From assembly GCA_017651165.1 (NCBI GenBank), contig JAGCDH010000012.1, positions 1 to 64,000 on the forward strand: a stretch of 64,000 nt of DNA. Direction: 5' to 3'. The translations under genes and the position numbers were made by a program. This document shows, piece after piece, positions 10,137-27,212 of this stretch (position 1 is its first letter; the number at the start of each line of letters is the position of its first letter). Source of the stretch: Bacilli bacterium (lineage in GTDB: Bacteria > Bacillota_I > Bacilli_A > RFN20 > CAG-826). The notes beneath the pieces were generated by a model, which saw only the letters and a list, made by a program, of their open reading frames with translations, was not told the origin of the DNA and searched no databases.

Positions 10137-10193
10137 AAAAAGTCCCTCTAATTAACCAATAGATAGGATTTTTGAAATTTGTCCAAAATATTT
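10137..10193 (-). repeat. 57-bp element, copy A (second copy at 25634-25690)
   Basis: Read on the minus strand this stretch matches 25634-25690 without gaps at about 46 of 57 positions. Fully conserved cores are AAATATTTTGGACAAA and CTATTGGTT. TGGACA and TCTATT, 16 nt apart, make it a possible promoter. It lies 31 nt upstream of the ORF6N gene. Confidence 0.55.
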
Positions 10194-25220: not shown

Positions 25221-25246
25221 TTTATATACCTCCCTTTGGTCTAATG

Positions 25247-25268
25247 GCTACCATATTCTCTTGGTAGC
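25247..25268 (-). promoter_or_regulatory. Hairpin in the rpsF leader, possible S6:S18 site
   Basis: GCTACCA and TGGTAGC pair (7 bp) around an 8-nt loop AGAGAATA in the minus-strand leader, between promoter and ribosome binding site. Firmicute rpsF leaders often carry an S6:S18-binding hairpin, but I do not see the usual CCG bulge clearly, so the role is uncertain. Confidence 0.35.
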
Positions 25269-25302
25269 AGAGATTTGTGCTTAATAAATACTAAGCGTGT
25301 CA

Positions 25303-25331: not shown

Positions 25332-25374
25332 GCGCATGTACGCACTATTGTGCTTGGTAGCGGGCAAAAGCCCG

Positions 25375-25402
25375 TTGACAAGTGCTATGCGAGTGTTATA
25401 AT
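25375..25402 (+). promoter_or_regulatory. Consensus promoter pointing into the small-ORF locus
   Basis: TTGACA (25375-25380) and TATAAT (25397-25402) match consensus fully with a 16-nt spacer. A GCGGGC-AAAA-GCCCGT inverted repeat (25360-25375) touches the -35 box. Transcription would run rightwards, antisense to both small minus-strand ORFs. There is no plus-strand gene downstream, so the product is probably a non-coding RNA. Confidence 0.65.
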
Positions 25403-25415
25403 GAAGGTGCTTGTT

Positions 25416-25441
25416 GGATCCTCGTTTCGAGGACCCTTTTT
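25416..25441 (+). terminator. Terminator close behind the plus-strand promoter
   Basis: GGATCCTCG and CGAGGACCC form a 9-bp stem with one mismatch and a TTT loop, followed by TTTTTA. It is only about 10 nt after the likely transcription start, so the main product would be an RNA of about 35-40 nt unless polymerase reads through. A second plus-strand hairpin with a T6 tract lies at 25639-25670. Confidence 0.7.
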
Positions 25442-25450
25442 ATTAAACGT

Positions 25451-25516
25451 TTAGTGGCGTTTAACATATTCAAGCATCAACAAAATAACAACGAGAATTA
25501 TCACTAATTCCTGCAT
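25451..25516 (-). CDS. Candidate 21-residue hydrophobic peptide
   Basis: MQELVIILVVILLMLEYVKRH is a single membrane-spanning stretch with a basic tail, in the size and style of type I toxin peptides. It has no ribosome binding site of its own and overlaps the 29-codon ORF in another frame, so it would need translational coupling or a frameshift. Transcription from the opposing consensus promoter converges on its 3' end. It may also be chance. Confidence 0.35.
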   Translation of the reverse strand: MQELVIILVVILLMLEYVKRH

Positions 25517-25559
25517 AAACTTGGCGCCAACGGAGCAGATGCCCTATTAAATGTCTCAT
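25470..25559 (-). CDS. Candidate 29-codon ORF with strong ribosome binding site
   Basis: The ORF encodes a basic peptide starting MRHLIGHLLRWRQVYAG and ends in TGA. GAAAGGAGA lies 6 nt before the ATG, a better initiation site than many annotated genes here have, which argues that something is translated. It overlaps the start of the hydrophobic 21-residue ORF, so it could be a leader that drives it, or the two could be one small membrane protein broken by a frameshift. No homologue is recognised. Confidence 0.4.
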   Translation of the reverse strand: MRHLIGHLLRWRQVYAGISDNSRCYFVDA

Positions 25560-25633
25560 GGATTGTCTCCTTTCGGCATTTAAACCAAGCATATGTAGAA
25601 GCATTATTGGCAGTTAGACCATTAGGCACAACC

Positions 25634-25690
25634 AAAAAGTGCTCCTATTAAACCAATAGAAGCGTTTTTTGATTTTTGTCCAAAATATTT
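25634..25690 (-). repeat. 57-bp element, copy B (first copy at 10137-10193)
   Basis: This stretch is about 46/57 identical, without gaps, to the element upstream of the ORF6N gene. Read on the minus strand it has TGGACA and TCTATT 16 nt apart (possible promoter for the small ORFs). Read on the plus strand it contains a hairpin, GTGCTCCTATT with AATAGAAGCGT (one mismatch), followed by TTTTTT, which could end a plus-strand RNA. The rest of the gap between rpsF and lysS shows no further gene. Confidence 0.55.
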
Positions 25691-25727: not shown

Positions 25728-27212
25728 TTATCTATCCCTCATTGTTGGGAAGAGAATGATTTCACGGATCTGTTGTTGGTTCGTTAATAGCATCACGAAT
25801 CTATCAATACCCATGCCCACGCCGCCTGTTGGAGGCATACCATACTCGAGCGCTTCCACAAAGTCTTTGTCCATTTCACTAGCTTCTTCGTCGCCTAGTT
25901 TCTTGGCTTCGAGTTGAGCGGCAAATCTTTGTTCTTGATCGATTGGGTCATTTAATTCTGTATAAGCATTAGCGAGTTCTTTGCCATTAACGAATAATTC
26001 AAATCTTTGAACGAATCTTGGATCTTTTTCTTTCTTGGTTAATGGAGAAACTTCGATTGGGTATTCATAAACAAAGGTAGGTTGGATTAAATCTGCCTGG
26101 CAGTATTCTTCAAAGAATTCATTCATGACATAACCAACGGTGTTTTTGAACTTGTCTAAACGTAAACCTTTTTGATCTGCTAAGGCTTTTGCTTCTTCGT
26201 ATGTTTTGATTTGTTTGAAATCGATTCCACATTTTTCTTTAATCAAATCATTCATGGAAATCCATCTGAATGGTGATTTGAAATCAATATCACGGTCCCC
26301 GTATTTCACTATAGCAGAGCCAGTAACTTCTTTAGCGGTATTTCTGATCATCTTTTCAGTAAGAGCACCAATACCTTTTAAGTCAGTATAGGCTTGATAG
26401 ATTTCAATACTTGTGAACTCTGGATTATGGGAAGCGTCCATACCTTCATTACGGAACAATCTACCAATTTCATACACTCTTTCCATACCACCAACGATTA
26501 AACGTTTGAGGTTAAGTTCAGTAGCGATTCTTAAGTAGAAATCTTTATCTAAAGTATTGTGATGGGTAACGAATGGACGAGCAGCGGCACCACCTAATGT
26601 TGGCGAAAGAATTGAAGTTTCAACTTCAACGAATCCTTGTCCATCTAAGAAGCGTTGGATACTACGAACGATTTGTGGCCTCATGAAGGCAACTTTACGA
26701 GCTTCATCATTCATGATTAAGTCGAGGTATCTTCTTCTAGAACGTTCTTCAACATCGGTTAAACCATGGAATTTTTCTGGTAATGGGTGTAAGCACTTAG
26801 TTAAGTGGATGAACTTTTTGGCTTTGATAGTCAATTCGCCAGTTCTAGTGAGATTCATGACACCTTTGATGCCAACGATATCACCGATATCGGCCATCTT
26901 GAAAAGTTCATAGTTCTTTTTACCTAAGTTATCTAAAGATAAGTAGACTTGCATATTACCTGTCTTATCTTGAATGTTCATAAATGAGGCTTTACCCATT
27001 TTTCTGATGGCTTTAATACGTCCCGCCACAGAAACATGTAAGTCCATTTTTTCTAATTTAGCAGCATTCTTTTTAGCGCAAAGCTCTCTAATTTCTTGGA
27101 AGGAATTAGAAACTTTGAAGGCTTGTCCGTATGGATCTAAACCTAATTCTTGGTATTTTTTGAGTTTCTCAAGACGGTTTAATTCTTGGTCGTTTAATTC
27201 ATTAATGTTCAT
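25728..27212 (-). CDS. lysS: Lysyl-tRNA synthetase, class II
   Basis: LysS charges tRNA-Lys. The 494-residue length is normal. The N-terminal OB-fold anticodon domain (about 50-150; VAGRIKAIRKMGKASFMNIQDKTG) precedes the class II core with motif 2 (FRNEGMDASHNPEFTSIE) and motif 3 (GMGIDRFVMLL). AAAGGAG precedes the ATG. As in other Firmicutes it follows dusB and ftsH, although a 64-nt gap with an inverted TTTTGACT/AGTCAAAA element may hold its own promoter. Confidence 0.97.
   Translation of the reverse strand: MNINELNDQELNRLEKLKKYQELGLDPYGQAFKVSNSFQEIRELCAKKNAAKLEKMDLHVSVAGRIKAIRKMGKASFMNIQDKTGNMQVYLSLDNLGKKNYELFKMADIGDIVGIKGVMNLTRTGELTIKAKKFIHLTKCLHPLPEKFHGLTDVEERSRRRYLDLIMNDEARKVAFMRPQIVRSIQRFLDGQGFVEVETSILSPTLGGAAARPFVTHHNTLDKDFYLRIATELNLKRLIVGGMERVYEIGRLFRNEGMDASHNPEFTSIEIYQAYTDLKGIGALTEKMIRNTAKEVTGSAIVKYGDRDIDFKSPFRWISMNDLIKEKCGIDFKQIKTYEEAKALADQKGLRLDKFKNTVGYVMNEFFEEYCQADLIQPTFVYEYPIEVSPLTKKEKDPRFVQRFELFVNGKELANAYTELNDPIDQEQRFAAQLEAKKLGDEEASEMDKDFVEALEYGMPPTGGVGMGIDRFVMLLTNQQQIREIILFPTMRDR

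Follow-up and report, generated by a model that had tools for sequence, protein, structure and literature searches.

The region between lysS (25728-27212) and the start of rpsF (25220), both located on the minus strand, carries a conserved module of approximately 220 bases (25360-25582, minus strand), delimited as the match of a covariance model, R1. The whole stretch of DNA analysed (the window) is 64,000 nucleotides long and its contig is part of an uncultured 1.14-Mb gut bacterial genome. The module has a 29-codon ORF with a strong Shine-Dalgarno (SD) sequence that overlaps a 21-codon hydrophobic ORF on the minus strand; both had been noticed in a first-pass annotation of the sequence and are indeed present, in different frames. 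A perfect promoter, soon followed by a terminator, opposes them on the plus strand. The strict detector which we used (a hydrophobic peptide with a basic tail, an opposing promoter and a terminator within 65 nt) found a single match in the 64-kb window, at the lysS-rpsF locus. When it was applied to both strands of 551 kb consisting of the window and 61 loci of relatives, the other matches were all module copies adjoining lysS. The module is more than a chance arrangement.

Eight of the 16 congeneric genomes carry the module. Its ten copies all lie in the lysS-rpsF gap, with three in tandem in G004; most of the genomes compared are incomplete assemblies. It is cleanly missing from the gap in five congeners (G007, G009, G013, G014 and G015), where the gap measures approximately 255 bases as against 510 bases with the module. 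Since these five congeners keep lysS, a dispersed repeat and the rpsF promoter intact, neither lysS nor rpsF needs the module, as the first-pass annotation had stated. At the left edge of the gap in four of them (loci L017-L020 of G013, G007, G015 and G014, respectively), a very short ORF with a good SD (MAHAKV, MAQAKV, MVATKV and MVRTKV) and the motif GTCTAACTT are left, possibly a remnant of the module 5′ end. A separate hairpin, GCTACCA...TGGTAGC, precedes the SD in the rpsF leader (25222-25290) and is conserved in all congeners compared. It gave no Rfam match at the gathering score and is possibly an autoregulatory S6:S18 site.

The toxin-like ORF (25451-25516, minus strand; 21 aa, MQELVIILVVILLMLEYVKRH) encodes one hydrophobic stretch with a basic tail. 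When the genus copies were aligned from ATGCARGA, 311, 43 and 411 differences were counted at codon positions 1, 2 and 3, respectively, and T at codon position 2 is invariant or nearly so in 21 modules of the family. The genus peptides, such as MQDLLLVLVVILILLVEVKRH and MQEIILVLLLLLLVLVAFKRLLKNK, keep M-x-E/D-L, then a run of L, I or V and finally K or R; otherwise the peptide varies, only its hydrophobicity and basic tail being constant. Judged by these substitution patterns, the frame is protein-coding and under clear purifying selection (pN/pS = 0.29 among the genus copies), which is the opposite of the lack of conservation named in the first-pass annotation as an argument against its reading. 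The toxin ORF has no SD of its own (SD score 0 in 10/10 genus copies). Loss of the peptide is tolerated, because a one-base deletion breaks its frame in the G010 copy. The product is a membrane peptide of approximately 20 residues and a probable toxin.

The longer, mok-like ORF (25470-25559, minus strand; 29 aa, MRHLIGHLLRWRQVYAGISDNSRCYFVDA) starts with ATG at 25559 behind the SD AAAGGAG and overlaps the toxin start in another frame. Its conservation is limited to the first approximately eight codons. The segment CCATGAGACATTT does not differ between the ten copies even at silent sites, and it lies in a hairpin with the SD, so the leader start is constrained at the RNA level too. This 5′ hairpin (25548-25582, minus strand), AAAUGYC...GACAUUU, has a loop that contains the leader SD and AUG; 95.8% of its cells are paired, with few variable pairs. 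In all of the 22 modules, an ATG leader with an SD precedes the toxin start by 40-76 nt and remains open up to it, whereas shuffled upstream regions contained such a leader in 0.77 of 22 cases on average and in 4 at most. A leader was present in 35 of the 40 modules of a wider set. It was in frame with the toxin in 11 and out of frame in 24 of them, and its frame relative to the toxin differs even between the genus copies. This ratio is near the 1:2 expected if the frame were irrelevant, and the leader frame therefore looks unconstrained. Thus, the 29-codon ORF of the first-pass annotation exists, with its strong SD and its overlap with the toxin ORF, but its behaviour is that of a leader without a conserved frame. 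The simplest reading, by analogy with mok/hok, is that ribosomes on the leader would pry open the toxin start whatever the frame. The 1:2 ratio makes such frame-independent translational coupling directly testable.

The opposing promoter, TTGACA-N16-TATAAT (25375-25402, plus strand), matches at 12/12 positions and has a TG-extended −10 element, and a terminator, a hairpin at 25419-25433 followed by T5, lies approximately 30-40 nt past the expected start. Both elements had been described in the first-pass annotation and were found in their places. The predicted antisense RNA of approximately 33 nt (25409-25441, plus strand) consists of a G/U-rich tail of about 10 nt, the terminator hairpin and a U run, and it ends just beyond the toxin stop codon with no overlap with the toxin ORF. 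The same promoter layout with a spacer of N15-16 occurs in 10/10 genus copies, and the promoter and the terminator, with tail and hairpin, are kept in every aligned copy. Five of the six pairs of the terminator helix changed on both sides. Across the modules, the predicted RNA is 30-50 nt long and antisense to the 3′ region of the toxin mRNA. The complementarity concerns this 3′ part only and assumes that the mRNA passes 25409, which is supported by the folding of the toxin strand. We also considered masking of the leader or toxin ribosome site by the short RNA in trans. The complementarity test gave no signal: pairing of the short RNA with its own mRNA 5′ leader was no better than with non-cognate leaders (−20.7 vs −21.0 kcal/mol, p 0.69). 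Direct blocking of a ribosome site is therefore unsupported.

The most telling feature of the module is the predicted 5′-3′ closure of the toxin mRNA, which the first-pass annotation was not in a position to see. In the minimum-energy computations, a fold of −73 to −78 kcal/mol (z −5.3 to −7.8) was obtained for the toxin-strand RNA of the module in the window, and the segment reaching from within the leader ORF to the toxin start codon (25513-25544, minus strand) pairs with the last 30 nt of the RNA (25362-25390, minus strand). This 3′ arm is the same DNA as the −35 box and the spacer of the opposing promoter. A small hairpin over toxin codons 3-8 (helix 5; 25494-25511, minus strand) is predicted inside the long-distance structure. 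The closed fold appeared in 10/10 genus copies (z −4.9 to −8.5), and a closed fold burying the toxin start, with 15-33 long-distance pairs, was predicted in 22/22 modules (z −3.5 to −10). RNAalifold on a MAFFT alignment missed the long-distance helix because its arms align poorly; in its place, we relied on folds of the single sequences, on arm swapping and on a projected structure.

In the arm-swap test, cognate arms reached a mean of −42.0 compared to −36.7 for exchanged arms, and none of 5000 permutations was as good. Pairs changed on both sides numbered 20 against 12.0 in shuffles. The covariation score was 0.220, above all 500 shuffles (0.147), and slid versions of the structure scored at most 0.111; this slid control favours the fold because the structure was derived from the same sequences, whereas the arm swap is independent of that structure. 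In 20/22 modules the toxin strand gives the better fold of the two strands, and in 20/22 it also has the more extreme z-score. It is therefore the toxin-strand RNA that appears to be under selection, and in that case the toxin RNA must extend through the antitoxin promoter. Scans found no toxin-strand terminator marking the mRNA 3′ end and no strong minus-strand promoter site upstream of the leader.

A candidate for the toxin mRNA promoter may be the dispersed repeat just upstream. This repeat of approximately 60 bp (25634-25690; also at 10137-10193 in the window) has about 16 further copies elsewhere in the genome; its minus-strand reading is TTTTGGACAAA...CCTCTATTGGTTAAGTAGGAGG, and it often stands immediately ahead of an ATG and looks like a recurrent promoter/5′-UTR cassette. 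The second plus-strand hairpin with T6 (25641-25670), which the first-pass annotation had placed at 25639-25670 and counted among the parts of the locus, exists but lies in this separate repeat. It was discarded as a module part since it occupies the same spot in the module-less congeners too.

Covariance model R1 was built from the ten genus copies. Within the genus it returned exactly these copies with strong scores and it gave weaker matches in seven other genomes of the family (15/224 family genomes in total). The distant family modules, read by hand, follow the same plan with hardly any nucleotides in common: each encodes a peptide such as MQYLLVLVIILLVICLLVK, MEYLVILVIILLLVILLLRK, METILMFLSLVAVIIYLLRK or MAELCLVLLMVLLILITLKK, is opposed by a promoter and has a hairpin-T terminator immediately beyond the stop codon. 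The wider search used a sequence-only profile of 21 modules. At E ≤ 1e-4 it matched approximately 49/224 family genomes and 12 genomes of the class outside the order (395 genomes searched); these counts include some false matches, and matches at E above approximately 1e-4 may include ordinary coding DNA of membrane proteins. The profile matches are often in tandem (three each in G134 and G178, two each in G278 and G164). Distant copies thus occur in other genera of the family and the order, tandem arrays among them, and in a second genus the L051 copy directly follows lysS. Phage and plasmid records gave no module match. Two viral contigs with the conserved start motif proved to be chance matches in GC-rich coding DNA and not modules.

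In other genera (L156, L155, L158 and L157), two or three module-like units stand in tandem at distances of 330-400 bp. These units encode clearly different peptides, e.g. MRRLFRLILIMILLISLLGN and MEELIALLVLILLILLEFGRNKKE, which suggests several subfamilies. Matches outside the order are otherwise rare, but G279, from another family of the class, has two good ones (L187 and L199; peptides MIFIILVMILLLLLIVAIKH and MLGLIIILILLLLIIVAIKS). These two copies have a longer predicted antisense RNA (approximately 65-70 nt) and no leader ORF and are perhaps a simpler form of the system.

Taken together, we consider it likely, on the sequence evidence, that this is a type I toxin-antitoxin module encoded on the chromosome and that its sequence family is new. 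This supports the type I reading of the first-pass annotation, the grounds being the selection on the peptide frame and the opposing promoter-terminator gene in every aligned copy. We infer the toxicity, the antitoxin function and the transcription of either RNA. According to the proposed mechanism, the minus-strand mRNA would encode the membrane peptide, the probable toxin, and the 3′ end of the full-length mRNA, i.e. the complement of the antitoxin promoter, would pair across the leader and the toxin start and render the complete message inert. The 5′ hairpin would hold the leader SD and AUG. Ribosomes would enter only via the leader ORF, and translation there, in any frame, would open the toxin start by a coupling like that of mok/hok. 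Trimming of the mRNA 3′ end may be the activation step. The plus-strand promoter would produce the RNA of approximately 33 nt, whose complementary site in the mRNA directly follows the toxin stop, and this pairing would mark the mRNA for decay by analogy with TxpA/RatA (PMC4147584). More tentatively, and with slightly less than even confidence, we propose the particular combination in which one DNA stretch serves as the antitoxin promoter and as the arm that closes the ribosome site, the leader acts in whatever frame by bringing ribosomes over the toxin start, the antitoxin measures only 30-50 nt and the system extends across an entire order of uncultured gut Bacilli. As the antitoxin promoter and the inhibitory mRNA arm share DNA, the family offers many natural variants for studying the evolution of this double constraint.

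The main alternative to duplex decay is that the opposing promoter acts mainly by transcriptional interference, the short RNA being a by-product and not an antitoxin. An RNA which ends at once after 30-50 nt and has no extra complementarity to the ribosome-site region is what interference would lead one to expect. However, no copy has lost the tail or the terminator hairpin, the pairs of the hairpin co-vary, and an overlap with the 3′ end of the toxin mRNA is known from Gram-positive antitoxins (PMC4147584). We regard interference as unlikely. A small, non-toxic regulatory membrane protein held down by mRNA folding and antisense RNA is somewhat less probable still. The coding frame, the fold and the antisense gene all concern the control of expression and would look alike in that case, and the peptide is short and generic, with Pfam matches that are weak and below threshold. 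On the other hand, tight repression in several layers, presence or absence among congeners and tandem arrays are typical of type I toxins, as is a peptide that varies in all but its hydrophobicity and basic tail.

The two remaining explanations deserve very little credence. A structured non-coding leader or attenuator of the rpsF-ssb-rpsR operon with incidental ORFs would suit a highly structured module upstream of rpsF on the same strand, but the module is separated from rpsF by an intact rpsF promoter, which the module-less congeners keep, the peptide frame codes for protein, and relatives are located on many different contigs, in several copies per genome. Equally improbable is a palindromic, MITE-like mobile element with chance ORFs: some species have the module and others lack it, and an inverted repeat, long but imperfect, does occur in it, but this genome has a single full-length copy, the ten genus copies share one locus, covariation is seen between the arms and selection acts on the peptide frame.

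The type I toxin-antitoxin reading can be set against the known systems. The scan of the window with Rfam covariance models gave no match at the gathering score. A comparison of the peptide with Pfam and NCBIfam gave no Hok match, no Fst/Ldr match at E 10 and no match of the TxpA/BsrG type; with Pfam Ibs_toxin (PF13956), E was 0.7 and the score 10.4 bits, below the cut-off of 27. Sequence signals typical of the type I class are present, namely a small hydrophobic peptide conserved as a protein and an opposing RNA gene with its own promoter and terminator. We found no report of a type I system from this lineage or from rumen assemblies in the literature searched; some of the peptides may have been predicted in silico earlier. 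The family appears to be both undescribed and widespread in a large uncultured gut lineage.

In the Hok/Sok system of E. coli plasmid R1, the mok leader ORF with a good SD overlaps a poorly accessible toxin start, the mRNA folds back 5′ to 3′ and the antisense RNA covers the leader SD. A leader ORF with an SD overlapping the toxin start, probably coupled to it, a predicted closed mRNA and an antisense gene are seen here too. In contrast to Hok/Sok, the antisense gene lies beyond the toxin stop instead of over the leader SD, the leader occurs in varying frames, and the peptide is unrelated to Hok and far shorter. In Fst (par of pAD1), the repeats DRa and DRb provide complementarity between the antisense RNA and the mRNA at their 5′ ends, and the terminator is shared with the toxin mRNA. 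The present module resembles Fst/Ldr in its small hydrophobic probable toxin and in the convergent antisense RNA from a strong promoter in a Gram-positive lineage; it differs in that no repeats make the antisense RNA complementary to the mRNA 5′ end and the antisense terminator is not shared with the toxin mRNA. As regards the "hok/mok- or Fst-like" designation in the first-pass annotation, the module is similar to Hok/Mok in having a leader ORF and in its mRNA folding, and to Gram-positive type I systems in the position of its antisense RNA at the 3′ end, but it belongs to neither the Hok nor the Fst family. The E. coli Ibs/Sib loci, also multicopy, have a similarly short hydrophobic peptide (19 aa vs 19-25 aa), but Sib spans the whole ibs ORF and its SD and there is no leader ORF, whereas the antisense RNA predicted here stops before the toxin ORF.

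In AapA/IsoA of Helicobacter pylori, a long-distance 5′-3′ interaction keeps the full-length toxin mRNA inert and co-transcriptional hairpins guard the SD (PMC6733600). A 5′-3′ interaction burying the ribosome site is likewise predicted here in 22/22 modules, with co-varying arms. IsoA, however, covers the 5′ part of the mRNA in a duplex of approximately 80 bp, whereas the present module has a leader ORF and its RNA of approximately 33 nt is opposite the 3′ part. In Gram-positive type I systems, the antitoxin and the 3′ end of the toxin mRNA overlap, and RatA acts through decay (PMC4147584). TxpA/RatA and BsrG/SR4 of Bacillus subtilis share with our module the convergent antisense RNA, which overlaps the mRNA 3′ end and reaches neither the coding nor the initiation region; their antitoxins are several times longer and their toxins have approximately 40-60 aa. 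A leader ORF and long-distance closure, both predicted here, are not cited for them (PMC4147584). Ibs, Fst, Hok, AapA and TxpA/BsrG thus share single features with the module and each of them differs in at least one defining feature tested. The module brings features of mRNA control of the Hok and AapA types into a Gram-positive layout with the antisense RNA at the 3′ end.
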